A stretch of 64,000 nucleotides of DNA, taken from positions 124,001 to 188,000 of IMG/VR virus record IMGVR_UViG_3300025319_000005. One strand, 5' to 3'. Both the position numbers and the translations under genes were made by a program. Under the pieces are notes generated by a model. That model searched no databases and was not told the DNA's origin. It was given only the letters and a program-made list of their open reading frames with translations. How positions within the stretch are numbered: position 1 is the stretch's first letter; every line of letters begins with the position of its first letter. The stretch comes from a virus. Of this stretch, positions 1,505-47,842 are shown piece by piece.

Positions 1505-2176
1505 ATGGAATTTGATGAATTGATAAGTAATATTGATTTACATTCTCCGTTCCATAAAATGCTGGAAAAAAATAAATTAACAATTACACAAAATGAATTA
1601 TTAAAATATGTTGATGATAATCATTTTACAATAATACATAAAAGAAGGCAAGAAGGAGTTAGTACTGCGTTATCAGTTTATATTTTGTGGTTATTAATTA
1701 ATAATCCGGGACATTCAATTGCTTTGATATTTTCTCAGACAGAAGAGAGGGAAAAATTCAGACAAATTATCAACATGAATTTAACTTTACTTGAAAAAAT
1801 ATTTAAACTTCATGGCTATGATATGGTTTTAACAGCTAAAAACCATAACATAAATGAAACTATATTTCCAAATGGTTCGCGTATTCATTATTGGTCAAAA
1901 AACAATAAACATGCCGGCAGGGGTCATAGTTTAGATTTTGTTTATATATCAGAAGTAACTCACCAAGATAATTACATGGAACTAATTCAATGCCTTTATC
2001 CATGCGTTGCAATGAGTAAAAAAGGTAGATTTCTAATCACTTCATCAACTATTAGGACACTAAAGGAAGACTTCTTTATGAATGGAGAAGGAATTTCCGA
2101 ATACTGGTGTAATGATTTTTTCGATGGTAAAAGATTTGTAATAGTAGAAAAATACGAATTCAATCATAAAGTGTGA
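1505..2176 (+). CDS. terminase large-subunit ATPase domain fragment with EKY motif
   Basis: Residues about 40-195 resemble the packaging ATPase of large terminases: a Walker A-like RRQEGVST (the RQxGxST variant known in some terminases), a Walker B-like FVYISEV and a coupling-type ITSSTI segment. A complete large terminase has 450-650 residues with a C-terminal RNase H-like nuclease. Here the protein stops at 223 residues and the nuclease is absent. The last residues carry RFVIVEKY, a motif shared with four other short genes in the window. It could be a dominant-negative fragment, a decoy, or a decayed gene; the intact frame argues against simple decay. Confidence 0.65.
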   Translation: MEFDELISNIDLHSPFHKMLEKNKLTITQNELLKYVDDNHFTIIHKRRQEGVSTALSVYILWLLINNPGHSIALIFSQTEEREKFRQIINMNLTLLEKIFKLHGYDMVLTAKNHNINETIFPNGSRIHYWSKNNKHAGRGHSLDFVYISEVTHQDNYMELIQCLYPCVAMSKKGRFLITSSTIRTLKEDFFMNGEGISEYWCNDFFDGKRFVIVEKYEFNHKV

Positions 2177-2733
2177 ATTTTAAAATCAAGCTCTTTTGAT
2201 AGTGTGTCATAATAAATTCCTATATCTCTCTGTACACATGAAACATCTCTATATTTTTGAAACATGTCAAATACAAGCATTTCAAACACAGAGCTAGTCA
2301 AGAAATCAACCGAAACTTTATATCCACAAACACAAAGAGCTCCTGTTTTTTTTAAAAAATCTTTTATTCTTGAATTTTCAGCCTGAAGCACAAGACAACT
2401 TCCAAAGAAAATTATCTTATCCTTACAAGAATCCTTTAATATCTCTGATATTTCTTCTAATGTTATATCTTCTTTCCCTATTTTTATTTCTCCCTCATTC
2501 CCATGAAACGCTATATAACAAATAGAATAATTTGAATATTTTTTTAATTTCCATTGTGAAAGATAATAAAAGAGCGATTCTTTAGTCCCACAATGTTTAT
2601 GAATGTATTTAATGTCACAATTTTTTTCTAAAAACATTAAAGAAGCAAATATACTTGATTGTTGACGCAAATCTTTTTGCCAATCCCCTTCAAGACAAAA
2701 AATGTTCTTTTTATATTTTTTAGAGATTTTCAT
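2164..2733 (-). CDS. caspase-like (CHAT-type) cysteine protease, predicted
   Basis: A 189-residue protein with the arrangement of a caspase-fold peptidase: a hydrophobic strand ending in YIAFHG (His77), then strand IIFFGSC (Cys113) followed by a helical region and ALCVCGY. It resembles the DUF6642-type family as I remember it. The His-Cys dyad looks intact. In bacteria such proteases are often defence effectors; in a phage it might be a counter-weapon or act on host proteins. It overlaps the 3' end of the convergent terminase fragment by 13 bases and uses an ATG start. Confidence 0.6.
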   Translation of the reverse strand: MKISKKYKKNIFCLEGDWQKDLRQQSSIFASLMFLEKNCDIKYIHKHCGTKESLFYYLSQWKLKKYSNYSICYIAFHGNEGEIKIGKEDITLEEISEILKDSCKDKIIFFGSCLVLQAENSRIKDFLKKTGALCVCGYKVSVDFLTSSVFEMLVFDMFQKYRDVSCVQRDIGIYYDTLSKELDFKIHTL

Positions 2734-2830
2734 TATGTTCTTTATAGTAAATATAGAGGTTTTAATTTAAAATAAGGAATAATTTTTATATTTTTTTACA
2801 TATTTAGTTAAAAAGCTCTAATAACTTAAA

Positions 2831-3076
2831 ATGAAAAGATTTACGGAAAGTGAATTAAAAAAGTATCTACAATCACAAGTGGAAAAAATAGTTATTTCAG
2901 AAGGTTTAATTAAAAAACAGAAAAGTAATCCGGTTCCGGAATTTGAAAGCTCTAAGAAAGAAACTGTATCAGAATCAGATAATATTCAAATTGAGGATGT
3001 AAAATTACTGGCTGAAGAGATAAAACGTATGAAAGAGCTTATTGATTTTAGAAATCCTTTACTAAAAAAAGAATAA
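2831..3076 (+). CDS. small protein with capsid-type leader
   Basis: An 81-residue charged protein. Its first 24 residues form an amphipathic helix ending VEKIVISE, which fits the (L/I)-x-E cleavage rule of T4-type prohead proteases. The remainder is short and probably coiled. It is followed by a good intrinsic terminator. No function beyond possible packaging can be assigned. Confidence 0.6.
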   Translation: MKRFTESELKKYLQSQVEKIVISEGLIKKQKSNPVPEFESSKKETVSESDNIQIEDVKLLAEEIKRMKELIDFRNPLLKKE

Positions 3077-3116
3077 TAACAACTTCGATAACAATTGCAG
3101 TTATCCAACGAGTTTA

Positions 3117-3150
3117 AAAAACCTTCAATTTTATTGGAGGTTTTTTGTTT
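3117..3150 (+). terminator. intrinsic terminator
   Basis: A and T tracts flank a stem in which AAAACCT and CCAAT pair with ATTGG and AGGTTTT, followed by a T run. It lies 40 bases after the small leader protein gene. Confidence 0.7.
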
Positions 3151-3192
3151 TTATCAATTTATTCCTTTTTATTTGCATTAAATTATTAAACC

Positions 3193-3780
3193 ATGGAAGA
3201 TTCAGAATTTTTTTTAAAAATAGATGCTATGTTAAGTAAAACATTAAAAAACCAAACACTCAAAGAGATGCAAGATGAATTAATAGTTGAAATTACTAAA
3301 AATAAAGAAAACCATAAAGAAAATTTTAATCCTGCATTAGTTTTTAAAAAAATTGGACAAAATATATTTCGAAAATTTCTTGAAACAGAGAGAGGGTATA
3401 CATTACTTTATGATTGTGAAGACAACACTTTTGACCAAACATATATAAAAAATGGGAAAATAGAAGTATTTGAATTAAAAACAGATTACACCCATATGAT
3501 AAATGATGATAATACTGGAGAAATAGCAGATACAAAAAACATAGTAATCGAATTTAAATCCATTGATAAAATGGCTAAATTTTTTGTTACATACTTTCCT
3601 CAAATAAATGAGTTATGGTTAATTAGAACAGAAAAATTAAAGAAGCTTATTGAAGAAGAGAAATATAATTTTCAAACAATAAAAACAGGTGACAATATAA
3701 CTTATTTAACAAATAGAATAGAAATTAAATCAGAATTCAGCATAACAAATGTTTGCAAAGAAGAAATTGTAGTAGTGTAA
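3193..3780 (+). CDS. PD-(D/E)XK-type restriction endonuclease, predicted
   Basis: A 195-residue protein with a plausible PD-(D/E)XK core at residues 72-125: acidic DNTFDQTYI, then EVFELKTDY as the E-x-K strand, and a later IVIEFKS strand. The next gene, a DNA methylase, starts in the last base of its stop codon (TAATG), the classic layout of a type II restriction-modification pair. The recognition site is unknown. It could also be a nicking enzyme working with the methylase. Confidence 0.6.
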   Translation: MEDSEFFLKIDAMLSKTLKNQTLKEMQDELIVEITKNKENHKENFNPALVFKKIGQNIFRKFLETERGYTLLYDCEDNTFDQTYIKNGKIEVFELKTDYTHMINDDNTGEIADTKNIVIEFKSIDKMAKFFVTYFPQINELWLIRTEKLKKLIEEEKYNFQTIKTGDNITYLTNRIEIKSEFSITNVCKEEIVVV

Positions 3781-4403
3781 TGGTAAAAAGCATATCATAT
3801 AATGAAGAAGAAATTATAAACTGGATATTAAATCTCCATTGCAAGACTTCTATTGAGCTTGATCCAACATACAGTAAAGGAAATTTCTATAAAGGAAGTA
3901 TTACTAAACCGAAATATAAATTCGACCTATATCCTCAAATTGATGGAGTAGAACGTGCTAATGCTGAAAAATTGCCATTAGAAGACATTAGCATTAATAC
4001 TATAATGTTTGACCCACCATTCTTAGCAACAAAAGGAAAATCTTTAACAATAGACAATGGAAGTAATAAAATAAACAAAAGATTTGGTGTTTATCCTACA
4101 GAAAAAGAATTACACACATTTTATATCAATGCTTTAATTGAATTCCATAGAATATTAAAACCTAATGGTGTCCTTATATTTAAATGTCAAGATAAAGTAA
4201 GTTCCGGAACACAGTATTTTAGTCACAATTTCATAATTAATGAAGCAAATAAATTAGGGTTTTACACAAAAGACATGTTTATATTATTAGCAAAACAAAG
4301 AATAGTGGCAAACTGGCAGTTAAAAAACCAGAAGAATGCCAGAAAATTTCATTCATACTTTCTCGTATTTGAAAAATCGAATAAAACAGTCAAATATATT
4401 TAA
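3780..4403 (+). CDS. DNA methyltransferase (DPPF motif)
   Basis: SAM-dependent DNA methylase of the N6-adenine/N4-cytosine class, with catalytic DPPF at residues 78-81 of the product started at 3780, preceded by the acidic strand ELDPTYSKGNF that fits a substrate or cofactor loop. I chose the ATG overlapping the upstream stop over an earlier alternative start at 3753. The upstream gene encodes a predicted endonuclease, so the pair looks like a restriction-modification module. The next gene downstream is the portal-like fragment. Confidence 0.75.
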   Translation: MVKSISYNEEEIINWILNLHCKTSIELDPTYSKGNFYKGSITKPKYKFDLYPQIDGVERANAEKLPLEDISINTIMFDPPFLATKGKSLTIDNGSNKINKRFGVYPTEKELHTFYINALIEFHRILKPNGVLIFKCQDKVSSGTQYFSHNFIINEANKLGFYTKDMFILLAKQRIVANWQLKNQKNARKFHSYFLVFEKSNKTVKYI

Positions 4404-4405
4404 CT

Positions 4406-4630
4406 TTGGGACATTACATTGATAATTATTTAAAAGCACTTCCGCCTTTTTTAAAACAAAATCAAAACGATGAAAATGTTCTAACAAGGATTGTTATTGT
4501 TGAAAAATATAATATAAATCCTTGGATTTGCTCAGGCAATTTAATAGAAGATTTAAAAAAAGACATGGATTATTTTCGTGCTAAAATGTTTAACTGTGTT
4601 GGAATTCCCTCAAAATACTTCGAAATATAA
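4406..4630 (+). CDS. portal-like fragment with EKY motif
   Basis: A 74-residue product from a TTG start two bases after the methylase stop. The centre carries TRIVIVEKY, the motif shared by five short genes here. The C-terminal part, EDLKKDMDYFRAKMFNCVGI followed by PSKYF, resembles the conserved segment of T4 gp20-type portal proteins ([20 protein letters not shown] in T4 as I remember it). A full portal is around 500 residues, so this is a small piece. Its tight linkage to the restriction-modification pair suggests a conflict role; this is inference. Confidence 0.5.
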   Translation: MGHYIDNYLKALPPFLKQNQNDENVLTRIVIVEKYNINPWICSGNLIEDLKKDMDYFRAKMFNCVGIPSKYFEI

Positions 4631-4659
4631 TATTTTTTTAGATTATTTAATGATAAATC

Positions 4660-5298
4660 ATGTATTTATCTGAATCATATAAAAATCGTCTTAAATTGCT
4701 ATCTGGAGTTATTCTTGAAGATGGTTCTGATGCTGTGAAGCACACTCCTGGTCTTGACGAATTCTTAGAAAAAGTAGTCGAAAGATATAAAATTGACAAC
4801 ACATTTGTTGATATAATAAAACAATTTATTTTAAATTCTGATTGTAAAAAAATTTCAATTGAAAATCTTAAAATGGGTGATGCTGTTGCTATGTCTGATA
4901 GATTAATATTAAGTCCAAATGTTTTCAGAAATCATTTAGGTAGATTTTTATTCATATTATTTCATGAAACAGCTCATCAATATCAATTTAAAAAATATGG
5001 TGAGGATAAAATGCTTTCACTTTATACCGGCGACATTTCAATAAAAGAAGCTGCAGAACTTATGAAAAAAATAGAAGTTATCGCTGATGACTTTGCTGCA
5101 AGAAAAATTAGAGAATTAATTAAATTAAAATTTTTACATCCAAAGCATAGTGAATTCAAAGGATTTTACAAGGATGTTCCTATTGAAAAACTTTCACAAA
5201 CCATTATTCAAATAAAGGATATGTTAAAAAAACTAAACATAACCGAACCATCCAAAATTAGTGAAGTATTTTATAATTGGGTAAAGGCCGACTTATAA
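4660..5298 (+). CDS. zinc metallopeptidase with capsid-type leader
   Basis: Residues 1-20 form the leader, ending SGVILE before DG, a T4 gp21-type cleavage site. The body carries HETAH at residues 102-106, the HExxH zinc motif, and a downstream KKIEVIADDFAARK helix that could supply a third ligand. I infer a small zincin protease packaged in the head and delivered with the DNA. The next gene has an almost identical leader, and both are preceded by a similar ATTTAATGATAA stretch. Confidence 0.7.
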   Translation: MYLSESYKNRLKLLSGVILEDGSDAVKHTPGLDEFLEKVVERYKIDNTFVDIIKQFILNSDCKKISIENLKMGDAVAMSDRLILSPNVFRNHLGRFLFILFHETAHQYQFKKYGEDKMLSLYTGDISIKEAAELMKKIEVIADDFAARKIRELIKLKFLHPKHSEFKGFYKDVPIEKLSQTIIQIKDMLKKLNITEPSKISEVFYNWVKADL

Positions 5299-5338
5299 CT
5301 CTAATTATAACTTTTTTCAAGATATTTAATGATAAGTT

Positions 5339-7198
5339 ATGAACTTATCAGAATCGTACAAAAATCGCCTTAAATTATTGTCAGGAATTATTTCTGAGAA
5401 TGTTTCTAATATCCAAGAATTAGATATTGAAGACGTATCTATTCCGGCAAGCTACATAAAAGATTCCTTAAATCCACAAATATGGGATGGTGATAAGTTA
5501 AAACCAGAAATAAGAGAACATTTACTAAATATAGTTAATGGATACAAAAAGCATCTTGAATTAAAAATAGAACCTAAAGATGTTAAATTTTTGGGAAGTA
5601 TGGCTAATTTCAACTGGACAGATGCAAGTGATATTGATGTCCATTTATTTTATGACATAAAAAACATCTCTGATAATACAGAACTTACTAAGCAATTACT
5701 TGAAAGTAAAGGTAAAGATTGGAAAGATAATCACGATATAAAAATAAAAGGTTTCAATGTTGAATTATATGCTCAGGATATTAATGACCAATATCACTCT
5801 GGTGGTGTTTATGATTTACTTAATAACGACTGGATTAGTAAGCCAAAAAAAGAAGATGTTAAAGTTGACAAAGAATTAATAAAAAGAAAATCTTCTTCCA
5901 TTGCTACAAGAATAGAACATGTTGAAAAATTGTCTGATAATAATCCAGATAAAGTTTATAAAGAAGCAAAAAAATTAAAAGATAAAATCAAAAAAATGAG
6001 ACAAGCTGGTTTAGATAAAACTGGTGAATTTTCTGCTGAGAATTTAGTTTTTAAATACTTAAGAAACAATGGTTATCTTGATAGGTTAGGAAAAGTTATC
6101 TCAAAATCTTTTGATAAAAATCTATCACTGGATGAAACTAACATTACTGAAGCTAACCACGATATTGATCCAAGACATTTAAGGAAAGTTATTTTTAAAA
6201 GCAAACGCAGGCCAGAAATGATTATTGTCGTTAGTAAGACTTTAGATGGTAGAATTGTTGACATAGAAAATAAATTCAATATAAATTTCCCATTTAAAGT
6301 AGGACAGATTCTAAATAGAAACCATGAAACATGGGCTTGTAATAATCATTATTTTGTAAATGACAAAGATACTTGTCCGGAAGAAAAAGTATTTGGTATT
6401 AGAAAAAGTGATATTCCTCAAGGACATGAATTAAGAATGATGTTTCCGGGTAAATTTAAAAACGAATCAAAAATGGAATTAAATGAAGAAACCAATAAAC
6501 TTTCCTCGAAAGAATCACTTGAAATAAAAAGGGTAGCTAAAAAAGGAAATTTAAATATTGGAAGATATGATATCAACGAGCTTATTATGGGATTTCAAAT
6601 TGAAAAAGAACATGGTACAGTTAATCCAATAACAAATGTTACTAATGATGATGAAGTGAAAACCTTAAAAATTGCTTTAGCTCATCTTAATGAGGTACCG
6701 GACTATTATACAAAACTTAAAAAGTATGTAGAAAATGGGATTTCAGAATCAAAAAAAGTAAAAAAAAAATTAATGAATGAATCAACAGATTTTGAAGAAA
6801 AACAAAAGCATAAATTAATTATAAAAAAATCCGTTGACAATCTTGACGAAAACAAAATTAATCTTATTAAAAAGTTTATAATTTTTTGTTGTAAAGAATT
6901 AAAGATAGATAGTTCGTGCACTGTATTTTTAACAGGAAAAAGGGGTGGTCCAATTACTACTACTGCAAGTTATAATCCAGAAAATGACCATATTTGGATT
7001 TATACAAAAAACAGGAATATGCTGGCAGATCCAATGAGATCGATGGCGCACGAAATAAGACATTTTAAACAAAAATTAGATGGTGTTTTAACTGAAAAGT
7101 CAGGTGAGGATGGAAGCATTCATGAGAATGAAGCAAATTCTTTTAGTGGATGTATGATTAGAAAGTTTGGTAAAAACAATAGAGAAATTTATCAATAA
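5339..7198 (+). CDS. packaged polyprotein: nucleotidyltransferase, DUF5661-like, metallopeptidase
   Basis: A 619-residue mosaic. Residues 1-20 are the leader (SGIISE). Residues 65-200 fit a nucleotidyltransferase fold with GS at 86-87 and catalytic-type Asp98 and Asp100 (ASDIDVH). The segment LDETNITE near 265 starts a second domain. A DUF5661-like stretch near residues 400-470 contains ALAHLNEVPDYYTKL. KLMNE near 478 precedes a C-terminal domain with HEIRH at 571-575 and a later HENEANSF helix. The internal (L/I/M)-x-E sites lie at domain borders, suggesting proteolytic release of separate effectors. Substrates are unknown. Confidence 0.7.
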   Translation: MNLSESYKNRLKLLSGIISENVSNIQELDIEDVSIPASYIKDSLNPQIWDGDKLKPEIREHLLNIVNGYKKHLELKIEPKDVKFLGSMANFNWTDASDIDVHLFYDIKNISDNTELTKQLLESKGKDWKDNHDIKIKGFNVELYAQDINDQYHSGGVYDLLNNDWISKPKKEDVKVDKELIKRKSSSIATRIEHVEKLSDNNPDKVYKEAKKLKDKIKKMRQAGLDKTGEFSAENLVFKYLRNNGYLDRLGKVISKSFDKNLSLDETNITEANHDIDPRHLRKVIFKSKRRPEMIIVVSKTLDGRIVDIENKFNINFPFKVGQILNRNHETWACNNHYFVNDKDTCPEEKVFGIRKSDIPQGHELRMMFPGKFKNESKMELNEETNKLSSKESLEIKRVAKKGNLNIGRYDINELIMGFQIEKEHGTVNPITNVTNDDEVKTLKIALAHLNEVPDYYTKLKKYVENGISESKKVKKKLMNESTDFEEKQKHKLIIKKSVDNLDENKINLIKKFIIFCCKELKIDSSCTVFLTGKRGGPITTTASYNPENDHIWIYTKNRNMLADPMRSMAHEIRHFKQKLDGVLTEKSGEDGSIHENEANSFSGCMIRKFGKNNREIYQ

Positions 7199-7199
7199 A

Positions 7200-12566: not shown

Positions 12567-13679
12567 CTAATTACTTAATGGAAAATGAATTTTTGGATGC
12601 GATTTATAATTTTCTAAAGTAATATCTTCTAAGGCATATTCAGAAATGTCATTAACTATTTTATCAGATATTTTAACTATTGGTAACTCATATGACTCTC
12701 TTAACAATTGTTCATTAACTCCATCAATTTGATTTAAATAAATGTGACAATCACCTAAGTTTCCTATTATCTCATATGGAATCATACTTACTTGTTTGGC
12801 AATCATACTTAAAAGAAGAGAATAGCTGCTGATATTATATGGTAAACCAAGTGCCGTATCAATGCTTCTTTGATTCCAACTTAATGAAATTGCTCGTTTC
12901 GGAATGTTTTGTTGATCTAATTCAAAATCTTTCCAATTATTTTTCCCACCTTTGTCACTGCCACCATAACCCAAATTTTTATCAAACCACTTATTTCTTT
13001 CTTCTGTGGTTAATTCTCTTGTCCAACATTGGAATCCATAATGACAAGGAGGTAAAACACATTTATCTAAAGTTCCTGGATTCCAAGCACTAACCATTAA
13101 TCTTCTACTATCTGGATTGGCTTTTAAGTCATTTATAAGATTCGATATTTGATCTACGAAACCAATTTTTGCTTGGATGCCTTTTTCTGTTTTTTCATAT
13201 TCTGTAAAAGTCCACTTCCTCCATTGTTTACCATAAATTTCGCCTAAATTTCCCCATTTTTCAGAAAATCCTTCTTCGTTTTTTATTTTATCAATAAATT
13301 CTTCTTTTGATTCGTACCTTAATGGAGCTGGATTAAATTCTGGTGAATATTTTTTTGCTTCTTTGGTGGCATAATCATATAACATTTTCTTTTCTTTTTC
13401 AAATGCTTTATATGCGTCCCCATCCCAAATATGACAGTTGTTATCAACTAAATATTTTATGTTTGTATCTCCTTTTAAAAACCAAAGTAATTCAGTTACT
13501 ATTGTTTTAAATGCCATTTTTTTGGTAGTAAGTAAAGGAAAACCGGTAGACAATTTATGACGTATTTCTCGACTAAATACACTTAAAGTTCCAGTTCCTG
13601 TTCTATCAGATTTTTTAGTACCATTTTCAAGAATATCTTTAAGTAAATTTTGATAATCTAAATCTAATTTATTTGCCAT
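12567..13679 (-). CDS. thyA: thymidylate synthase
   Basis: Classical ThyA that methylates dUMP to dTMP with methylenetetrahydrofolate. The N-terminus has DRTGTGT and FPLLTTKK, the catalytic loop is LPPCHYGFQCW, and the C-terminal half carries RSIDTALGLPYN and GDCHIYLNQ. At 370 residues it is longer than the usual 265-ish because of two insertions, near residues 90-130 and after the catalytic Cys. The start ATG lies about 15 bases after a TACTTTTG box. Supplies dTMP for an AT-rich genome. Confidence 0.95.
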   Translation of the reverse strand: MANKLDLDYQNLLKDILENGTKKSDRTGTGTLSVFSREIRHKLSTGFPLLTTKKMAFKTIVTELLWFLKGDTNIKYLVDNNCHIWDGDAYKAFEKEKKMLYDYATKEAKKYSPEFNPAPLRYESKEEFIDKIKNEEGFSEKWGNLGEIYGKQWRKWTFTEYEKTEKGIQAKIGFVDQISNLINDLKANPDSRRLMVSAWNPGTLDKCVLPPCHYGFQCWTRELTTEERNKWFDKNLGYGGSDKGGKNNWKDFELDQQNIPKRAISLSWNQRSIDTALGLPYNISSYSLLLSMIAKQVSMIPYEIIGNLGDCHIYLNQIDGVNEQLLRESYELPIVKISDKIVNDISEYALEDITLENYKSHPKIHFPLSN

Positions 13680-16173: not shown

Positions 16174-16250
16174 TGTCGATTAGAGACTACAAGTCCTCTC
16201 TTTTCTGGTTGTTCACACCAGCACTTTACGTGTACATAAGTTAAATCGAC
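16174..16250 (-). tRNA. atypical tRNA-Phe(GAA), degenerate D- and T-loops
   Basis: Acceptor GTCGATT/AATCGAC, A73, U8-A9, D-stem ACTT/AAGT, anticodon stem CTGGT/ACCAG with loop GTGAACA (U33, anticodon GAA). The D-loop lacks GG and the T-arm loop lacks TTC, so the normal elbow contacts are missing. A near copy follows at 16256 with compensating changes in both stems, which supports a real folded RNA. C37 instead of a purine is unusual. Confidence 0.6.
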
Positions 16251-16255
16251 ATATG

Positions 16256-16332
16256 TGTTGGTGAGAGACTACAAATCCGCTCTTATTCGGCTGTTCACAC
16301 CGATACTTTATATGTGTATAAGTTACACCAAC
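16256..16332 (-). tRNA. atypical tRNA-Phe(GAA), second copy
   Basis: Acceptor GTTGGTG/CACCAAC, A73, D-stem ACTT/AAGT, anticodon stem TCGGT/GCCGA, loop GTGAACA (anticodon GAA). T-arm again has TTGTAGTCTCT in place of a normal loop. Differences from the copy at 16174 are mostly paired changes in stems. The same 77-base length. No CCA is encoded. Confidence 0.6.
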
Positions 16333-16431
16333 ATATTTTATTTAAAAGAACTAAATCGTTTCAATTATTTAACGATACAAAGATAATAATATTTAAAACT
16401 TAAAACCAAATATTTTATAATAAAAATTTAC

Positions 16432-16439
16432 CTATTTAT
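16432..16439 (+). promoter_or_regulatory. candidate late promoter box CTATTTAT
   Basis: CTATTTAT lies 31 bases upstream of a gene with a capsid-type leader. The same box, on the coding strand, precedes many other genes with such leaders. Confidence 0.4.
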
Positions 16440-16469
16440 TAAAAAGTTATTAACAATTCAAATACTACA

Positions 16470-17009
16470 ATGACTACAGAGGAAAAAAAATTAAGAATAG
16501 CTATAAGAAAATCATTAATGGAAATGGAAAACGTTTCTGAAAGCGATATTTTAACAAGAGCTGGAGTTAACTGGCAAGAGATGAAGCCTAAATTTTTAAA
16601 AACAGTTAAATGTCTTGTTTCAAAAATAGATGACGATAAATATAACGATGCAGAAGATTTAATAGGTAAAGCTATTGGTATGCTTAAAATTTGGAAAGCA
16701 AAAATGAAAAAAGGAATAGGAATGGTTGATAGAACTTCGAATACTGAGACGTTGGATGAAATTGATATTACGGAAACTTTTGGTGGGAAATATGCTCTAG
16801 GAACTGGATATAAAAAAGATGAAATTGGCGATAAAAAATATCAAGGAAAACTTATTGATTATATTCTTTATAATCAAGGAAGAAACACAGACCAAAGAGA
16901 GCCGACTGATAGAAAAATGTATTGCGGATATGATTTAGAACAATTATCTAATAAGGATTTACAAAAAATAAAGGATAACATGGAACATCCAAGAGGAAGA
17001 TACTGGTAA
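16470..17009 (+). CDS. hypothetical protein with capsid-type leader
   Basis: A 179-residue protein starting with an amphipathic stretch (KKLRIAIRKSLMEMENVSE) that fits the leader pattern with a possible cut after LME or VSE. The body is charged, and its C-terminus has aromatic and Arg residues. No family recognised. Confidence 0.6.
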   Translation: MTTEEKKLRIAIRKSLMEMENVSESDILTRAGVNWQEMKPKFLKTVKCLVSKIDDDKYNDAEDLIGKAIGMLKIWKAKMKKGIGMVDRTSNTETLDEIDITETFGGKYALGTGYKKDEIGDKKYQGKLIDYILYNQGRNTDQREPTDRKMYCGYDLEQLSNKDLQKIKDNMEHPRGRYW

Positions 17010-17541: not shown

Positions 17542-17811
17542 TTAAGAATATTTACCTCTTCGATTTGCTCTCCTTGGCTTTCTTTCTAATTTTACTGGAG
17601 CTTCTTCTGTTTCCTCTATTTGTTCCGGTTCTGGTACCGGTTGTTTTGGAAGTGGCGTTTGGTCTTGTTTAATAACTTCTGGATTACCTATAGAAGGTGA
17701 TTGCGTTTGTTGAGGAACAGATTCTCCTCCTTGAGAAGATTGTTCATCTTCGTTGATAATTCCTGCCAATTCACGCATTCTTTTTAGCTCTTCTGTAAGA
17801 TTTTTTTTCAT
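17542..17811 (-). CDS. disordered protein with capsid-type leader, 89 aa
   Basis: Leader MKKNLTEELKRMRELAGINE-type: here it ends LAGIINE before DE. The rest is low complexity, rich in Gln, Pro and Glu, and ends with a basic RRANRRGKYS tail. The leader is almost identical to that of the next upstream gene, 13 bases away, implying duplication of the leader cassette. A basic packaged protein could bind DNA in the head. Confidence 0.65.
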   Translation of the reverse strand: MKKNLTEELKRMRELAGIINEDEQSSQGGESVPQQTQSPSIGNPEVIKQDQTPLPKQPVPEPEQIEETEEAPVKLERKPRRANRRGKYS

Positions 17812-17824
17812 TTTACTTAATTTG

Positions 17825-18310
17825 TTATTTTCCTGGTTTTCCAGATTTTATCCACTCATCTCTAAGTTTCTCATTTTCTATTCTATTCCAAACTGATTTT
17901 TGAATTGCCTGAGATGCTTTTGTTCTAGAATTTGCAGATGCTTCATCTGGATAACGGACACGCCATTGATAAACAAGCTCCTTTGCTACTCCTAAACCTC
18001 TGTATTTCTTATCAACAACAAGAGTATTGCCAAAATGATAGCTGGCAATTATTTTATCACCATCATATACAACAGCACCATCTTCATTGAATTTCGCTGA
18101 ATATTTCCCTTTTAAAAATGGTTCTAATTTATCATCTTTTAATGTGGTAAGTTCACTTGGTTTTAAAAATTTCGCATTAGCGTTTGTTGTTATTGATGGT
18201 TTTCCTAAAAATTGGTCTTTTGTTAAATCATATACAGATGAAAACTTAGCTTCATTAATTCCTGCCAATTCACGCATTCTTTTAATTTCTTCTGTGAGAT
18301 TTTTTTTCAT
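17825..18310 (-). CDS. GNAT acetyltransferase with capsid-type leader
   Basis: Leader ends RELAGINE. The body contains a GNAT core: GDKIIASYHFGNTLVVDKKY, then RGLGVAKEL, matching the R/Q-x-x-G-x-G/A acetyl-CoA loop, and a following helix. 161 residues is a normal size for a single GNAT domain plus leader. Substrate unknown. The candidate box CTATTTAT lies 6 bases upstream of its start. Confidence 0.7.
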   Translation of the reverse strand: MKKNLTEEIKRMRELAGINEAKFSSVYDLTKDQFLGKPSITTNANAKFLKPSELTTLKDDKLEPFLKGKYSAKFNEDGAVVYDGDKIIASYHFGNTLVVDKKYRGLGVAKELVYQWRVRYPDEASANSRTKASQAIQKSVWNRIENEKLRDEWIKSGKPGK

Positions 18311-23356: not shown

Positions 23357-24871
23357 CTATAAAAATCCTTCGGTGGTAGCCCACCTATATTGTTCTGCAG
23401 TTAGGAAATTAGGAACTTTTTCTAAACCCTTTTTATTAGCTATCTTTGAAATGTAATAATTTTTCAAATCTTTTGAAAGCAAGTTAAAAAATCTATTAGG
23501 CATAAACGTATAAAAGTTATCTAAATATTTGTTTATGTAAAGTTTCTTTTCTCGTTCGTCAAGTTCGCTGAATTGTTCTGGTTCAATAAGATGAACTTTG
23601 TTTTTCAAGAGTCCTTTACGATAACGTTCTTTTTGTTCTGGCGTAGCCATTTCATATGCCCAAGAAGGTAGTTTTTTGCCAGAATTTGACATTTGTTCAA
23701 TGTAATAGGCCACTAACTTAGGGTCAGAGTCTAAAGCAACTGAATGAGGTAGTTCTCCACCTTTCTTTACTATATCTTTATAGTAGTAAACCTTTAGTCT
23801 GTTTTCTGCATTTTTAAAATAATAAGAAGGTAATGAGGTTGAGCTATATTTAGATAATTTTTTTTCTATAGCTTTTTGACGTTCCTCCGGTTCCATTAAC
23901 AATAAATATTTTTCAGCAATAGTCCATCCATTCTCAGCGAATATTTTTATTTGCAATTCTCTTAGTCCGGGTATTGTGTCAATTATTGTTTCTGGTATTT
24001 TTAATCCTTTTCTAATACGTTCTTCAAGTGCCGGCATAAATCTTTGAATAGCTTCTGGATTTCTTTCTGCAATAGCTCCAAGTAATGAAAGCGCAGTATC
24101 ACTTAAATCTTGACTTGTGGATAAATATTTTGCAATAGCTTCATTTAATGCATCAGCGATACTTGGATTATTTTTGAAAAATTCTCCGACATCTATCTGA
24201 CTATCATTCATGTTCATGAATTGATTCGACTCAAAATGAAACTGATATCTTCTTGTCGCATCATCTTGATTTAATTTCAATTTGTCTATAATGATGTATA
24301 ATGGACCGTCTTTTGTGTAATGTTCGTAATTATCAGGAAATCTCGTGCACCATTGACTAGTACATGCATAGAATTTCGAAGACTCGTAAGATTTAGGAAC
24401 AACAACCATCCATCTTCTGTTTTCGAAAAATAATTCTGCTTGACCGTTATTTATAAAAAATCTATCAGTTAAAAGATATGATTCATCATCTTTAACTTGA
24501 CCGGTTCCTCCAAATCTTGAATTAAGAATAAATAACTCTGGAAGTGAACTTATTTTACCAATATCCTTAGCATTTTCTGGAAGAATATTTTGTTTTTTAA
24601 GCTCATTATACATAATGAGATATTCCTTTGCTTTATATAAATCTTCTTTTCTTAATTTCCCTTTTTTGTGAAGAGAAAGTAACCACTTTGAATATTGTCC
24701 TAACTTATCTGGAATTCCTTTTTTTATAGGAGTTGTAGGGTCTGCTTTTATAATGTCGTAAAAAAAATCGAGACGAATATCTACATAGTACTTTTCGTAT
24801 ATGTCAGACACTTTTGACTCAGAGAGAATTCCAGCCAATTCCTGCAGTCTTTTTTTGAGTTTGTCGTCCAT
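23357..24871 (-). CDS. packaged W/C-motif protein, 504 aa
   Basis: Leader KKRLQELAGILSE, cut before SK. Residues 150-180 read RRWMVVVPKSYESSKFYAC then TSQWCTRF, followed by GPLYIIIDK and YQFHFES, a conserved block I associate with uncharacterised proteins of T4-like marine phages. The second half consists of helical repeats with PE-x-x-x-x-(I/L) spacing. The Cys and topology echo the MxxCVxxY block of PcfJ-like proteins. Role unknown. Confidence 0.65.
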   Translation of the reverse strand: MDDKLKKRLQELAGILSESKVSDIYEKYYVDIRLDFFYDIIKADPTTPIKKGIPDKLGQYSKWLLSLHKKGKLRKEDLYKAKEYLIMYNELKKQNILPENAKDIGKISSLPELFILNSRFGGTGQVKDDESYLLTDRFFINNGQAELFFENRRWMVVVPKSYESSKFYACTSQWCTRFPDNYEHYTKDGPLYIIIDKLKLNQDDATRRYQFHFESNQFMNMNDSQIDVGEFFKNNPSIADALNEAIAKYLSTSQDLSDTALSLLGAIAERNPEAIQRFMPALEERIRKGLKIPETIIDTIPGLRELQIKIFAENGWTIAEKYLLLMEPEERQKAIEKKLSKYSSTSLPSYYFKNAENRLKVYYYKDIVKKGGELPHSVALDSDPKLVAYYIEQMSNSGKKLPSWAYEMATPEQKERYRKGLLKNKVHLIEPEQFSELDEREKKLYINKYLDNFYTFMPNRFFNLLSKDLKNYYISKIANKKGLEKVPNFLTAEQYRWATTEGFL

Positions 24872-32108: not shown

Positions 32109-34619
32109 TTATCTTTTAATTCTTGTGTTGAGAGGATTCATCAAAGTTTTTGTGTCAACTCCATCCTCAGGGTTTCTTATTTTTTTTTTGGTTTGATTTG
32201 AACTTTCTTGTGATTTTAATTGCTGTCTTACCCAATTTCTTCCAGCATTTCCGCCCCAAAGATTCCATTTTTGAATTAAAGGTGAATTATTGATGTTTTT
32301 TCCAGCAGCAAGCTCTTGATTAACAGCCTGCTCATTGTTTGTAAAAAAAGCCTCCATTCTCTTTAATTGAGCATGCGTCATAAGCTCTGCATTAGATAAA
32401 GAATTGGCTTTTTGAATGCCGGAGCCTTCATTCGAGGCATCTGATTGAACAAGTTTATTATTTTGAACAGCTTGTAGTGCTTGTTGAGCCGTTTTAATAA
32501 CATCACCAGATGGTTTAAATGTAGCTACTGTATTATCATTAGTGTCTGAATAACGAAAATTTCCACCTTCAAATAGGATTTTCCTAATAGTTGCTCTTAC
32601 TTTTTCTTCAAATAAACTTTTCATAGTAACATAATGTGCTAAATTTTCAAATGGAATAAAACCTTCCTTAACTCCTTTTTTTGTAAGTAATCTAATTTTA
32701 AATTTTCTGTTATGTATATTAGTCTCTAAAACTTCTATAAAATCACCATCTGGCATTTTAACAGAATTTCTTTCGCCATTTTTACTTATAAATCCTAAAT
32801 TTCTCAATATACGTCCTGCTTCTTCTGAGTTTTGCACAACTTCTGGAGTTGTTTGAAGTTGTTCCAAATCTTCTTCTAATAACCTCTCTATTTCTTCTTG
32901 CATATAGGATAAATCTTTTGGTTTCGGCCATATATTTTGCCAAGCATCATCTAATCCATATCCATGTGCTCCTGTAATTTTATTTACATCAGAATCTTTT
33001 AAATCTTCAAAATCTTCAATAACATCATTTGAATTAAAGTTTTTTTCAGCAATGTATCTTAAAAGTTTTGTCCAAGGAAAAGTAATAACATCAGTATTAA
33101 AATCTATTTTAAATCTTTGTTCTTTCCTTATCATTTTATCCCTTACTTTTGCAAATTCATCTGATTTTTTTTCATAAATTTCAGATATATATATTCTTTT
33201 TATATCTTCTGAATTTGGAAGAAATTCATTAATAAAATCCCAAATGCCTTCACCGTTATTACTTTCTTCGTCTATTGGTGTTTTTAAAAAATTTGATATT
33301 GTTTTTAATAATTTTTCATTTTGTTTTCCGAGCATATGGTAAGACATTTGTTTTTCTTCTCTACTTTCCCCTTCTTCTACTGCATAATGATTTTCAACAT
33401 AATAAAATGCACTTTCATCCTCATCTGAAAAACCTGCCCAATCTCTCCAATCATCACCAATATAAAGTTGAATTTCTTTATTATTAGCTTCAAAATTAGA
33501 ATACATTTTTTTATCATTAAAATCACTGTATCCAAAAACGCTATGAGGCTCATCATAACCTCTCATTACTGCTATTATTTTCTGCATAAACATTGGTAAT
33601 GATTTTATCTCTGCAGATTTTATTTTATAACCATTTGCTAATTTTGCTATAGGAGATAAATTTTTTATTTCTTCATCAGTTAAAGGAATTTTGTGTTTTA
33701 ATTTTAAATCAGGAGACATTTCTTTTATCTCTTCATCAGTTAAAGGAATTTTGAATTTTAATTTAGATTCAACAGGAATAGACATTAATTGCTCTTGATT
33801 TATGTCGATACCTAATAAATATCTATTTAATGGTAATATTTTTATGTTAAACAATGAAGAAATAAGCTTTTTAAAATCGGGATACATTTTAATAGTTTGA
33901 TTAATAGTATTATTGTGACCAAAATCAATATTTAATATTTCGCCCAATTTAGATATTAAATCAGCAGATTTCATTGCTGAATTTTTATCTGGAACTTTAT
34001 TAAAAGCACCTTGAAAATCGATTAATTCTTTTTTTGCTTTATCAAATTGAATAGCAATTTTCACAGAACCATCTTTATTAACAAGCATATAACCACCTTT
34101 ACTTTTAACAAATTCTTTAGCTCTACCAATTTCAGAAAAACACCAACCCCTTTCTTCTCCCACTTTCATACAAAAGTTTTTATCTTTAACAATAATCCAT
34201 TTAGAACCATCTGGATAATTTATTACTGCTTTTCCTCCAGATATTTCTTTTAAAGTTAGAGGGTCTATATTTTTACTTTCAAACCACTTAACTGCAGTTT
34301 CGTAAACTTTATCAAATGGCATATTTGATGGAAATTTTGGAAAATTAGATTGATTAATCCAATTTATTATAACTTTTAATCTTGCATCGTTTATAATTTT
34401 TTCATTCAATTTTAATTCAGAAGCAAACCAAGGTATGTATTGGTTTTGTTGAATCAAATTTTCATCTTCAGGATTTTTTACTGTTTTTTTAGAAAACTGA
34501 ATAACGGTATTAATTATATCTTCAGGAACCCTTTGAGAACGAAGTTTATCTATTCTATTCTCATTAAGTAAACCTGCGAGTGACATTAATTTTGCTATAT
34601 ATTTTTCAGATAAATTCAT
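32109..34619 (-). CDS. packaged W/C-motif polyprotein, 836 aa
   Basis: Leader KYIAKLMSLAGLLNE cut before NR. Near residue 130-175, SKWIIVKDKNFCMKVG then ERGWCFSEI and GGYMLVNKDGSVKIAIQFD give the same Trp-strand, Cys, Trp-Cys block as the two other large packaged proteins. Two copies of KIPLTDEEIK form short repeats. Near residue 660 an internal VRATIRKILFEGG looks like a second leader, followed by a C-terminal helical domain with LIQKWNLWGGNAGRNW. Probably matured into at least two products. Confidence 0.65.
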   Translation of the reverse strand: MNLSEKYIAKLMSLAGLLNENRIDKLRSQRVPEDIINTVIQFSKKTVKNPEDENLIQQNQYIPWFASELKLNEKIINDARLKVIINWINQSNFPKFPSNMPFDKVYETAVKWFESKNIDPLTLKEISGGKAVINYPDGSKWIIVKDKNFCMKVGEERGWCFSEIGRAKEFVKSKGGYMLVNKDGSVKIAIQFDKAKKELIDFQGAFNKVPDKNSAMKSADLISKLGEILNIDFGHNNTINQTIKMYPDFKKLISSLFNIKILPLNRYLLGIDINQEQLMSIPVESKLKFKIPLTDEEIKEMSPDLKLKHKIPLTDEEIKNLSPIAKLANGYKIKSAEIKSLPMFMQKIIAVMRGYDEPHSVFGYSDFNDKKMYSNFEANNKEIQLYIGDDWRDWAGFSDEDESAFYYVENHYAVEEGESREEKQMSYHMLGKQNEKLLKTISNFLKTPIDEESNNGEGIWDFINEFLPNSEDIKRIYISEIYEKKSDEFAKVRDKMIRKEQRFKIDFNTDVITFPWTKLLRYIAEKNFNSNDVIEDFEDLKDSDVNKITGAHGYGLDDAWQNIWPKPKDLSYMQEEIERLLEEDLEQLQTTPEVVQNSEEAGRILRNLGFISKNGERNSVKMPDGDFIEVLETNIHNRKFKIRLLTKKGVKEGFIPFENLAHYVTMKSLFEEKVRATIRKILFEGGNFRYSDTNDNTVATFKPSGDVIKTAQQALQAVQNNKLVQSDASNEGSGIQKANSLSNAELMTHAQLKRMEAFFTNNEQAVNQELAAGKNINNSPLIQKWNLWGGNAGRNWVRQQLKSQESSNQTKKKIRNPEDGVDTKTLMNPLNTRIKR

Positions 34620-43304: not shown

Positions 43305-43309
43305 CTGTT

Positions 43310-43809: not shown

Positions 43810-44076
43810 TTAAGAGAATATCATTCTCGTATTTGATTGGAAAATACAATAATAATCTCCATCTTCGTATTTTGTATTCCAAATACCATTTTTTGTTTTT
43901 TCATCCCACTCAGCAACAGCTTCTTGTTTTGATACATTTTTTGTTATATCAATCCATAAATTATCAAATCTGTCATATAGCCTTACAATATATTCTTCTT
44001 TTTCTTCTAAAGAATCAATAATTCGATGACGTTCTAATATTCTTTGATTCTTTTCATACTTTGTTCTTTTGCTCAT
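43810..44076 (-). CDS. hypothetical charged protein, 88 aa
   Basis: Basic N-terminus followed by beta-rich YIVRLYDRFDNLWIDITK. It begins one base after the Dam gene's stop, so it is likely in that operon. Function unknown. Confidence 0.55.
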   Translation of the reverse strand: MSKRTKYEKNQRILERHRIIDSLEEKEEYIVRLYDRFDNLWIDITKNVSKQEAVAEWDEKTKNGIWNTKYEDGDYYCIFQSNTRMIFS

Positions 44077-44077
44077 A

Positions 44078-44734
44078 TTATTTACAGTTTTTTAAATAAA
44101 CACATTCCATATGTTTTTTATTAGTTCCCATCATCTCTTTTAATGATTTAAAATTTAACCATTTATCATTTTGATTACCACAAACTATAACCTGTGTATC
44201 TAAAGAATTTATTATATTTTTAAGCTTATCATAATCAACTTTCCAATATGTGTATTTGTGAGATTGAACGGAATAAGGTGGGTCTATAAAATATGTGAAA
44301 TTTTCATTTACTGGCATGGTCATAGCATCCTTTTGATAAATTTTCCAATGTTTTATTTTATATACTTCGCCTGCAATCCTTTTTCTATCTTTTTCCCACG
44401 TACTCCTTACGCTCATTATGTTATTTGGTCGCGCCGCTCCCCTATTTCCTTGATAACCTATTAACCACCTTTCTTCATTACTTAAACTTTTTATGGTTCG
44501 TAAATCAAAACCAGGAGGAGCATCTGGTAAATTTAAAATATCATTTGCAGTTGCACCTTGCAAATATTTCCAGATTTTAAAAACTTTATCATATGTTTCA
44601 TAAAGAATTACATTTTTTTCAAAATATTCTAATGAATATCTTGCAAATCCAGCAAATGGCTCTATAATAGTGTCTTTTTCTGGAGCTGGATAACATCCTT
44701 TGACTTTCGATTTGGTACCGTAATAGCTAATCAT
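44078..44734 (-). CDS. DNA adenine methylase, D12 class
   Basis: N6-adenine methylase. Motif I is IIEPFAGFARYS at residues 23-34 and the catalytic DPPY is at 151-154. The start MISYYGTKSK fits the usual SPLRYPGGKS-like opening. 218 residues is short but complete for this class. It would protect phage DNA from a host or co-infecting restriction system, or act as an orphan. Confidence 0.85.
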   Translation of the reverse strand: MISYYGTKSKVKGCYPAPEKDTIIEPFAGFARYSLEYFEKNVILYETYDKVFKIWKYLQGATANDILNLPDAPPGFDLRTIKSLSNEERWLIGYQGNRGAARPNNIMSVRSTWEKDRKRIAGEVYKIKHWKIYQKDAMTMPVNENFTYFIDPPYSVQSHKYTYWKVDYDKLKNIINSLDTQVIVCGNQNDKWLNFKSLKEMMGTNKKHMECVYLKNCK

Positions 44735-44822
44735 GTTTTTATGTTTTTAATTGTTTATGCAAAAATACTATTTTTTTATTAACATTGTTGTTTGCTGGAT
44801 ATTTTTTAATTAAAATTGCACT

Positions 44823-45608
44823 ATGGAAAATAATGTTACAAAAATAGAAAAAGAAGGCGTTTCATATATATGTGCCCCTGATTTAAAAAAACAACATATT
44901 AACAAATTCATAAGCTTCACTCCGTTTGAGATAGAAAGATGCGCTCAATTTTCTATTGATATGATGAACAATAAGAACAAACCCAGAGGAAAACACGCAA
45001 AAGAAAACAGGCAAAGAGATGATGAAGAATATCTTTTCAACTGGTTTATTGGCTCATTGGGAGAAGTTGCAACCTATAACAAAGCATTAAAATCAACAAT
45101 AGATTGTTCTCCAGTTGATTTAACAATGATTGAAGGTTTTGATAATCAAGATTTTATATTTTTTGATAAATTTCCGATAAGCGTAAAATCGACTAAGCAT
45201 TATGGAGGAAACATGTTATTAGAAGACGATAAATATGATTTAGACGCACTTTATTTGCATAGTGAAGGTGGTAAAACTACTCCTTTGGAAGTAACTGCAT
45301 TTATAGGCGTTGCAGTTGGATTAGATAAATATAGATTTGATGAAGGTCTTAAAAAAGAAGATTACAAAAAATTTCTAATGTCATTAAACCCAAAATATCA
45401 CATTTATGGTTTTTTAGGAAAAAATGATTTAAAAAAAGAAAAGGAAAAAGGGAATCTTTTTTTAAAACACACAATAATAAGCGGAAAAACAAAAATGGAA
45501 GAAAATAATGTTGTTATACGTTTAGATGCATTAAGACCATTTGAAGGGCTCATAAAATTAAAAGAAAAAATTTTAAAAGAAAAAAATGAAGAAATTGAAA
45601 TTAGGTAG
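44823..45608 (+). CDS. type II restriction endonuclease, PD-(D/E)XK, predicted
   Basis: Residues 75-125 hold GSLGEVATYNKA, a DLTMIEGF segment and DFIFFDKFPISVKSTKHYGG, which fits a PD-(D/E)XK core with the K strand at ISVKSTKH. Overlaps the 5mC methylase start by 23 bases, a typical restriction-modification layout. Recognition site unknown. Confidence 0.7.
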   Translation: MENNVTKIEKEGVSYICAPDLKKQHINKFISFTPFEIERCAQFSIDMMNNKNKPRGKHAKENRQRDDEEYLFNWFIGSLGEVATYNKALKSTIDCSPVDLTMIEGFDNQDFIFFDKFPISVKSTKHYGGNMLLEDDKYDLDALYLHSEGGKTTPLEVTAFIGVAVGLDKYRFDEGLKKEDYKKFLMSLNPKYHIYGFLGKNDLKKEKEKGNLFLKHTIISGKTKMEENNVVIRLDALRPFEGLIKLKEKILKEKNEEIEIR

Positions 45609-46527
45609 TCTATACTCTGGAGTAGAAGGGATAGGGTTAGGATTTGAACAGGCTGGTTCAGAAACTTTATGGGCAAATGAAATGGATGCGAACGCATGCA
45701 AAACAATAATGGCTAATTTCAACAACAAAGTATATGAATGTAAAGTTGAAGAATTAAAACCAGATTCTTTGGTGCCAGTTGATATTTTAACTGCAGGTTT
45801 TCCATGCCAGAGCTTCAGTATTGCTGGATATCAAAAAGGGTTTGAAGATGAAAGGGGACATCATTTTTTTGAAGTTATTCGATTAGCAAAAATAATTAAA
45901 CCAAAAGTAATATTTCTTGAAAATGTTAAAAACCTTAAATCACACGACAAAGGTAAAACATTTCAAATAATGTGCGATACACTTACTAATATTGGTTATA
46001 ATTTTAAATACGATATTTTAAATACATACGAATATGGAAATATTCCACAAAACAGAGAGCGAATTTATATAGTCTGTTTTAGAAATGATTTAGATATAAC
46101 AAAATTTGAATTTCCAAATAAAATACCTTTAACCTTATCTTTTGAAGAGTTATTAGAAAATAATGTAGATGAAAAATTTTATTATAGAGAAGATAAATAC
46201 AACTACACACAATTAGCAGAAACAATGACCAAAACAGATACTGTTTATCAATGGAGAAGAGTCTATGCTAGGGAGAACAAAAAAGGATTATGTCCAACGT
46301 TAACCGCAAACATGGGAACTGGAGGTCACAATGTTCCGCTTATTTTAACAAAAGAAGGAATAAGAAAATTAACTCCAAGAGAATGTTTTAATTTACAAGG
46401 TTTTCCGTTGAATTTTATTTTACCAGATAAAATGTCTAATGCTCAATTGTACAAGCAGGCAGGAAATAGCGTAAGTGTTCCAGTAATCAAAAGAATAGCT
46501 GAAAACATATTAAATGCATTGAATTAA
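45586..46527 (+). CDS. DNA (cytosine-5) methyltransferase
   Basis: C5 methylase with the expected motif order: SLYSGVEGIGLGFEQAG (motif I), GFPCQSFS with catalytic Cys74 (IV), VIFLENVKNL (VI), QNRERIYIV (VIII) and QAGNSVSVPV (X). 313 residues. Partners the overlapping endonuclease upstream. It converges on the three minus-strand EKY genes. Confidence 0.92.
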   Translation: MKKLKLGSLYSGVEGIGLGFEQAGSETLWANEMDANACKTIMANFNNKVYECKVEELKPDSLVPVDILTAGFPCQSFSIAGYQKGFEDERGHHFFEVIRLAKIIKPKVIFLENVKNLKSHDKGKTFQIMCDTLTNIGYNFKYDILNTYEYGNIPQNRERIYIVCFRNDLDITKFEFPNKIPLTLSFEELLENNVDEKFYYREDKYNYTQLAETMTKTDTVYQWRRVYARENKKGLCPTLTANMGTGGHNVPLILTKEGIRKLTPRECFNLQGFPLNFILPDKMSNAQLYKQAGNSVSVPVIKRIAENILNALN

Positions 46528-46769
46528 TATTCAATTTCTCCTGATTTATAAACCGTGAATGTTGTTGAAATATACTGTATCGGTTTTGTGACTTTAACAT
46601 TAATATACATTACGCCTTTATTTTTTTCTGGATATTTTTCAAATATTACAAATCTGGTGTTTTCATCATGATTAGCGAAATGCATTTCATCAATTTTGTA
46701 ATCACCCGTAGCTAATAGTTCAACAATTTTGCCAACAGAATTTAATGATTCATCATTATTTTTTTTCAT
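46524..46769 (-). CDS. EKY-motif protein, 81 aa
   Basis: Carries TRFVIFEKYPEKNKGVMYIN, the shared motif followed by beta strands. I cannot match the rest to a virion protein. Overlaps the sheath-like gene by four bases and is third in the EKY operon. Confidence 0.5.
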   Translation of the reverse strand: MKKNNDESLNSVGKIVELLATGDYKIDEMHFANHDENTRFVIFEKYPEKNKGVMYINVKVTKPIQYISTTFTVYKSGEIEY

Positions 46770-47017
46770 GATTTCATATTTTTAAACATTAAGCTTTCCA
46801 TTGAGACTTGAAATTCTGTTTCAAATACAGGACTAGCCACTAAATCATAAGAAAATAATGAAATATCTATTTCACTTGTATAAATTCCAGGACTTACAAA
46901 CATTTTAGGACTAGCCCACCAAATAGGAACGTTTCCATAACAATCAAATTTGGGAGTATAATAACGTCTACCAAAGTATTTTTCAATTATAACAAATCTT
47001 GTAAATATGTTTTCCAT
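46766..47017 (-). CDS. tail-sheath-like fragment with EKY motif
   Basis: Starts with TRFVIIEKY at residues 6-14, then FVSPGIYTSEIDIS, which is the standard N-terminal signature of contractile tail sheath proteins (SPGVYTxEID). A full sheath is 400-700 residues, so this 83-residue product ends soon after the signature. Middle of a three-gene minus-strand group. Either a truncated or decoy protein. Confidence 0.55.
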   Translation of the reverse strand: MENIFTRFVIIEKYFGRRYYTPKFDCYGNVPIWWASPKMFVSPGIYTSEIDISLFSYDLVASPVFETEFQVSMESLMFKNMKS

Positions 47018-47023
47018 TATTTA

Positions 47024-47842
47024 TTACAAATTTCTATTTCTACCATCAAATATCATCATCATCTCTGTAGAACCGCTTCTTACTGGGATAAAATAATCAT
47101 TTTCAAATACTATGCTATTTAAACTAGTTGAGCCTGATACATTATTGTTCCACCGATTAACTTTTGGTTTATATTTTTCAAAAAGAACAATTCTTGAATA
47201 AACATCTTCTCTTTCAAATGTGTAATCAAAATAATTTAACATTCCAGTAGATGCTGATAATGGTTGAACCGGGACGAGATCAAGAGCTATAGTTTGTGCA
47301 AAAACTTGCCTTATCATAGGAAATACTATTCCGTCAAAATTTGTTTCTTCCTTTTTTTTCTTGAATATTTTATTCCAGATAGAAACAAAAAATGATTTTA
47401 TTTTTAAGAATATCTTTTTCCACTTAGAGTCAAAACTTCTACTACTAACACCAATAATAGAAGATGAAAATTTACGTATTAAATCATTAGTTTCTTTTGT
47501 AGTTAATTTTCCAACCGGAACTGTATATGTTCTTTGTATCGGACTATTAACATCATTTATAAAACAAGATGCTTGATTTTCATATAATTGAACAATATTA
47601 CTTTTTTGATAACCGTGTAAACCATCAAGGAATCCTGAGTTTTTCCAATTTTTATAAATAATCTTTCTTTGATTTTCTAAATCTATGGATTTGTTGTGTT
47701 TTTCAAAGAGAACTTCTCTGGTTTCAGAACTGCTTTCTTCTTCTACTTTTTTGGTTTCATTTACGAGATTTGTCCAATTACTAATAACATTGAACACAGA
47801 ATTATCTCTTTCGGTTATTTTTATATCTAAAGGCATGTGCAA
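47024..47842 (-). CDS. major-capsid-like mosaic fragment with EKY motif
   Basis: 272 residues. SGFLDGLHGYQ then LYENQASCFIND resembles the N-terminal region of T4 gp23-type capsid proteins, and FPMIRQVFAQTIALDLVPVQ then PLSASTGMLNYFDYTF matches the conserved gp23 segment. Between them lies RTYTVPVGKLTTKETNDLI, similar to a portal gp20 segment, plus an amphipathic Lys-rich helix. It ends with SRIVLFEKY and an extra domain; a second EKH-like motif is near residue 45. It looks like a mosaic of virion pieces in one open frame. Confidence 0.55.
   Translation of the reverse strand: MHMPLDIKITERDNSVFNVISNWTNLVNETKKVEEESSSETREVLFEKHNKSIDLENQRKIIYKNWKNSGFLDGLHGYQKSNIVQLYENQASCFINDVNSPIQRTYTVPVGKLTTKETNDLIRKFSSSIIGVSSRSFDSKWKKIFLKIKSFFVSIWNKIFKKKKEETNFDGIVFPMIRQVFAQTIALDLVPVQPLSASTGMLNYFDYTFEREDVYSRIVLFEKYKPKVNRWNNNVSGSTSLNSIVFENDYFIPVRSGSTEMMMIFDGRNRNL

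Follow-up and report, generated by a model that had tools for sequence, protein, structure and literature searches.

A short peptide motif shared by many small proteins of a narrow clade of T4-like phages looks like a previously undescribed docking tag

Results

EKY motifs and virion-protein pieces in five window ORFs

We analyzed a 64,000-nucleotide window of a virus genome (positions 124001-188000 of the 212,632-base record G000), in which a first-pass annotation had reported that five ORFs share the sequence R-(I/F)-V-(I/L)-x-E-K-Y, hereafter EKY. All five ORFs carried the motif, each in one intact frame as had been claimed, and together they held six copies. ORF calls were mechanical, and all contigs of the clade are fragments. 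Two of the ORFs lie on the plus strand. ORF 1505 (1505..2176) contains part of the terminase large-subunit ATPase, with residues 29-183 matching TerL and the nuclease part missing, and its motif RFVIVEKY (2132..2155) ends 6 residues upstream of the stop. ORF 4406 (4406..4630) contains the motif RIVIVEKY (4487..4510) and a portal (gp20)-like piece, KDMDYFRAKMFNCVGIPSKYF (4559..4621); it is packed between a methyltransferase gene, starting 2 nt past it, and a head-signal gene with a LAGI/LSG tag, ending 29 nt ahead of it. The remaining three lie on the minus strand. ORF 47024 (47024..47842) has two stretches of the gp23 N-terminus with an EKY motif on either side, in the order REVLFEKH (motif copy 1, 47696..47719), an N-arm/propeptide piece (47549..47683), a further gp23 piece, FDGIVFPMIRQVFAQTIALDLVPVQPLSASTGMLNYFD (47225..47338), and RIVLFEKY (motif copy 2, 47171..47194); of its two motif copies, a second one was recorded at residue 41. 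ORF 46766 (46766..47017) carries the motif RFVIIEKY (46976..46999), then a sheath N-terminus piece, MFVSPGIYTSEIDISLFS (46850..46903), and then a prohead-protease-like piece, SLFSYDLVASPVFETEFQ (46808..46861). ORF 46524 (46524..46769) carries the motif RFVIFEKY (46632..46655), and no virion piece in it rose above background. All of these motif sites were located by pattern match. A minus-strand gene (2164-2733) for a DUF6642 protein (PF20347, 1.4e-32), whose HG...GSC residues look caspase-like, overlaps the terminase EKY ORF at its 3' end.

Recognisable pieces of virion proteins had been proposed for four of the five ORFs, and profile searches bore this out with significant matches for terminase and gp23. 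The terminase part matched PHROG 5989 (3.4e-13) and exceeded the Pfam cut-off of Terminase_6N. Its identity to complete TerL proteins, from other T4-like phages as well as from the sister lineage, was only ~26%, too low for a recent copy of the sister-lineage gene. ORF 47024 exceeded the Pfam cut-off of Gp23 in the N-terminal part of that protein. Its N-arm/propeptide piece was 56% identical over 45 aa to residues 17-61 of the clade's own capsid protein, and its other piece was 45% identical over 38 aa to residues 70-107; the two are separated by 70 residues, compared with about 8 in the real protein. The latter piece covers what we take to be the counterpart of the Gol peptide of T4. The residue aligned with the likely cleavage site is D and not E (CFIND vs HMLNE). 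In the T4 capsid-targeting sequence, a D at the cleavage position stops processing but not targeting (PMC9026906).

The portal and sheath pieces were supported by comparison with a background of 600 clade proteins. The gp20 piece is 21 residues long and had no significant profile match, but it ranked best of the 600 (score 54, next 31). ORF 46766, also without a significant profile match, combines 13-18 residues of the sheath N-terminus with ~14-18 residues of prohead protease. Aligned over 18 aa with the sheath of the clade itself, its sheath piece was 61% identical, and it ranked second among the 600, after the real sheath protein only; its protease-like piece ranked first (score 45 vs 33) and, across 28 aa, had 50% identity with a protease-like ORF of LR756500. 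A gp20 piece in ORF 47024 (QRTYTVPVGKL...) and a tail-protein piece in ORF 46524, both plausible by eye, were rejected with scores within the background. We therefore regard the terminase and capsid pieces, as judged from profiles and alignments, as real, and those of portal, sheath and prohead protease as short candidate segments above background.

Four of the five ORFs thus contain segments homologous to or resembling T4-like gp17, gp20, gp18, gp21 and gp23. Unlike the T4-like virion proteins, they hold pieces only, alongside EKY, and two kinds are joined in ORF 46766. As had been proposed, the matches cover only parts of the proteins, short of the full-length fold of a working terminase, portal, sheath or capsid protein. 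The clade's real virion proteins are encoded by separate, untagged genes; those for sheath (PHROG 23), capsid protein (PHROG 138), head protease (PHROG 207) and scaffold were found in the related contig G002, and the motif was absent from all four. The untagged capsid and sheath genes disfavor a reading of the ORFs as split virion genes, while a search of the incomplete record G000 itself for a full-length terminase or capsid gene found neither. A search of viral contigs for orthologues of the EKY ORFs with terminase and capsid pieces found none. All the virion-piece ORFs fall in two clusters of the window, and none of the other tagged proteins of the set described below had virion similarity.

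The motif is over-represented in unrelated proteins

The motif was not special to the five ORFs. A loose pattern identified ~60 small ORFs with the motif in G000, clustered at 1-4, 26-38, 95-99 and 109-116 kb and in the window, and co-occurrence in other genomes was confirmed in G001-G005 and G038. Six related records (G000-G005) yielded 109 non-redundant motif ORFs, ~1 of them perhaps a chance match, with the consensus R-x-V-[LI]-[IFVT]-E-K. A T precedes the consensus in 55%, and the K following E is ~90% conserved. When the motif was masked, the 109 proteins separated into 79 unrelated families, 69 of them singletons, so that the suggestion of a "tag-like system" in the first-pass annotation proved right in kind. 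Its ties to the virion pieces and to the neighboring restriction-modification pairs were not supported, since most tagged proteins lacked virion similarity and the tagged set included an Acb3 and a LAGLIDADG endonuclease.

The back-translated DNA pattern of R-x-V-x-x-E-K matched the window six times against 0.30 expected, a number reached by none of 100 shuffles. Among 600 non-overlapping ORFs of the clade contigs, there were 96 motif matches compared with 1.05 expected from composition. When each of the five fixed positions was omitted in turn from the search pattern, it was recovered in 84-97% of matches. The motif thus combines the over-representation and the convergence in unrelated proteins that characterize a short linear motif. 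Codons differed freely among copies, the peptide being conserved and the DNA not, and this synonymous variation indicates selection on the peptide rather than on the DNA. Of the 109 proteins, 32 carried the motif no more than 16 aa from the N-terminus and 39 no more than 16 aa from the C-terminus, and in the others it was internal. Sites at termini and at alignment gaps are compatible with accessible termini or loops; AlphaFold models, built for ORF 47024 and for one tagged family, had pLDDT below 40 and were not used. Our literature search turned up no description of the EKY peptide. On this evidence we consider that EKY is very probably a genuine functional tag.

CRISPR-like mini-arrays with ~36-nt repeats and 29-32-nt unique spacers lie at the 3' ends of genes of one EKY family (in G000, L004:12600-12950, 13200-13550 and 16250-16500, L005:6150-6400 and L010:12290-12530; further loci, L016:1-300 and 3471-3740 and L017:10285-10490). 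The repeat differs from one mini-array to the next and in each case is coding sequence of the gene itself (e.g. LETHVKLEGYTP). Periods of 65-68 nt put several of the mini-arrays out of frame, some end in a degenerate repeat, and the same locus in related contigs has different spacers. The repeats may resemble type VI-B repeats. Cas1 was not found in the clade contigs, and spacer targets were found neither in phage records, nor in one exact scan of viral contigs, nor in 2.5 Mb of phage DNA.

The tag is an addition to otherwise normal proteins and is restricted to one clade

An Acb3 CBASS inhibitor (Pfam PF25187, 2.4e-38) is among the tagged proteins. It is a full-length member of its family and differs by a 25-residue insertion that bears the tag and that occurred in 0 of 33 homologues. 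The same tagged Acb3 is encoded by G038, with the core kept (RFVILEK and REVIIEK) and the linker changed. In the LAGLIDADG protein, the tag lies in an extra tail past the family's end, and in a PHROG 10141 protein it lies in a variable loop. All three orthologue pairs retained the motif, with changes at permitted positions only, while the remainder of the proteins was 32-64% identical. By these comparisons EKY is an added tag; its gain was convergent.

The related contigs G001-G005 gave no match to a control pattern read backwards. The motif itself was absent from a 462-kb huge phage and from Flavobacterium phage immuto. Thirty other phage contigs with related thymidylate synthase contained two motif matches, identical to each other in sequence. 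Among 39 contigs with related capsid proteins, a motif cluster occurred only in G038, whose capsid protein is 90% identical; the remaining 38 (36-81% identical) gave 16 matches, below the reversed control. The tag system, as sampled in these contigs, is specific to a narrow group of large T4-like phages, with Flavobacterium phages among its relatives, and is absent where the capsid protein is at most 81% identical.

Head signals and a probable late promoter are separate from EKY

A second tag class consists of LAGI and IRKILxE N-termini (e.g. MKKNLTEEIKRMRELAGINE, MNLSESYKNRLKLLSGIISE and MRNIRKMIRKILIEE) and is found in the window at 4660-7198, 17542-18310, 23357-24871, 32109-34619, 47890-48850, 56038-58432 and other sites. 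The scaffold of immuto has the C-terminus SEQVSRWQKLAGIIK, and two small immuto proteins start with MKKQILSEQFxRMQxLAGII. The clade's own scaffold has the C-terminus RMKRLAGIVKNSEE, and sister scaffolds likewise have LAGI there. Since LAGI occurs at scaffold C-termini and at the N-termini of small proteins, the LAGI and IRKILxE N-termini are likely head signals, and the LAGI form suggests a scaffold-mimicking signal that may load many proteins into the capsid. EKY shows no such resemblance to a scaffold-core signal, the scaffold C-termini reading RMKRLAGI.

The octamer CTATTTAT lies shortly upstream of the clade's scaffold and sheath genes and of some head-signal genes, with copies at window positions 16439, 48363, 48388, 56019 and others; it is probably the late promoter of this phage group. 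By simple string matching, the octamer was upstream of none of 97 EKY genes compared with 6 of 25 LAGI/IRKILxE head-signal genes (p=4e-5), and the comparison of EKY genes with other genes gave p=0.03. This count does not point to late expression of the EKY genes together with head genes, as for T4 capsid-targeting sequences. The ORFs from 47024 to 46524 come after a head-signal gene that bears CTATTTAT and are a partial exception among EKY genes. With ORF 4406 also beside a head-signal gene, the virion-piece ORFs of the window lie in or beside head-signal operons, unlike most tagged genes, so the two subsets may act differently. Another element, GTAACACCT...TTCGTATAGTACATTATAA, is repeated before many small genes in one half of G000 (5-92 kb, e.g. 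upstream of 17526, 19770 and 24399) and is probably another promoter class.

Discussion

The EKY peptide looks like a previously undescribed docking tag. The account that we tentatively favor, at a little under an even chance for the whole of it, is that R-x-V-[LI]-[IFVT]-E-K was gained convergently by ~80 unrelated accessory proteins of a narrow clade, at their ends or in a surface loop, and would dock them to one common partner. That such a partner exists seems somewhat probable; since sister phages lack the tag, it is probably phage-encoded. The tag would act as a handle and the variable part as a bait or an activity, so that a tagged protein, with whatever its variable part binds, may be recruited to the putative partner. 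The four virion-piece ORFs would then mimic conserved segments of virion proteins while carrying the tag, and would most likely bait host sensors or the subunits of co-infecting phages, although a bait or decoy role for them is, in our view, possible rather than probable. The terms "decoy" and "dominant-negative" used in the first-pass annotation could apply to these four ORFs only. A more elaborate version, in which one hub protein binds R-x-V-[LI]-x-E-K and at least ~80 interchangeable tagged baits, virion-segment mimics included, deliver host defense proteins or parts of competing phages for destruction or sequestration, strikes us as unlikely. The known activities among the tagged proteins are only those of Acb3 and the homing endonuclease, and a shared need for the same partner is not obvious from them. 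As a candidate partner, the DUF6642 gene was found only in G000, all records being fragments.

Short peptides that serve as a handle for a common machine are known from ssrA-type degrons and protease adaptors. The tag might similarly mark accessory proteins made early for degradation at a set time, by a protease of the host or the phage, or make each of them an adaptor that drags its target there. We rate such a degradation tag as rather unlikely. Positions at termini and loops would suit a degron, the tagged genes lack the probable late promoter and an anti-defense protein is among those tagged; but EKY is not C-terminal only, its sequence is unrelated to that of ssrA-type degrons, no protease or adaptor was identified, with the DUF6642 gene absent from the other clade contigs, and destroying Acb3 would be self-defeating unless timed.

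Our initial hypothesis was a capsid-cargo signal, by which proteins would enter the head and be ejected along with the DNA. The internal head proteins of T4 (IPI-III, Alt) offer a parallel in their architecture, where one short constant signal is carried by several diverse small proteins, some of them anti-defense (PMC9026906). Both the (L/I)-x-E cleavage motif and the IRKILxE N-termini of the phage itself look similar to the EKY core. The T4 signals, however, are N-terminal and ~10 residues long, are processed by the head protease at (L/I)xE and attach to the head core, whereas EKY occurs at any position, with only about a third of tags N-terminal, and keeps after its E a K that is missing from the head signals listed. 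We dropped this hypothesis on the promoter and scaffold tests, the octamer preceding some head-signal genes but none of the 97 tagged genes, and the scaffold carrying LAGI at its C-terminus. EKY is probably not the capsid-cargo tag, a role that we now consider quite unlikely for it and that the separate, scaffold-like LAGI/IRKILxE signal fits. Cargo-loading peptides of encapsulins and microcompartments, in which a short terminal or internal peptide sends many proteins to one partner, are alike in principle to the docking that we favor, but neither a shell partner nor a shared sequence was found for EKY.

A hydrophobic core flanked by fixed charged residues, and its presence in a loop of Acb3, would suit a site at which a phage-encoded protease cuts to activate or separate parts of the tagged proteins. 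We think this improbable, as many copies lie a few residues from a terminus, where a cut would alter little, and no conserved protease candidate was found in the clade contigs. It is more improbable still that the virion pieces alone matter, either misleading host sensors as decoys or inhibiting other phages in a dominant-negative manner, and that the motif is incidental to them. Bacterial immunity is known to be triggered by terminase, portal and capsid proteins (Avs, CapRel, Lit), the presumed Gol-equivalent region lies within the capsid piece and the virion-piece ORFs are confined to two clusters; against this, the motif occurs in ~75 other families that have no virion similarity. Least credible is a peptide without any role, left by a DNA insert that was mobile or arose by recombination, or by the splitting of virion genes: the insertion into Acb3 and the joining of virion pieces in one ORF could be explained in this way, but the peptide is conserved while the DNA of the copies is not, diverged orthologues retain the tag, and the clade has full-length virion genes.

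In the clade contigs that we examined, roughly every sixth ORF bears the same seven-residue peptide, which is absent from close sister phages. If EKY is a docking tag, identifying its partner would give a function class to ~100 small phage proteins together, and would show that one handle can serve a phage across its accessory arsenal. That its members include a tagged Acb3 and mimics of virion segments suggests a role for this arsenal in conflict with bacterial immunity or with other phages.
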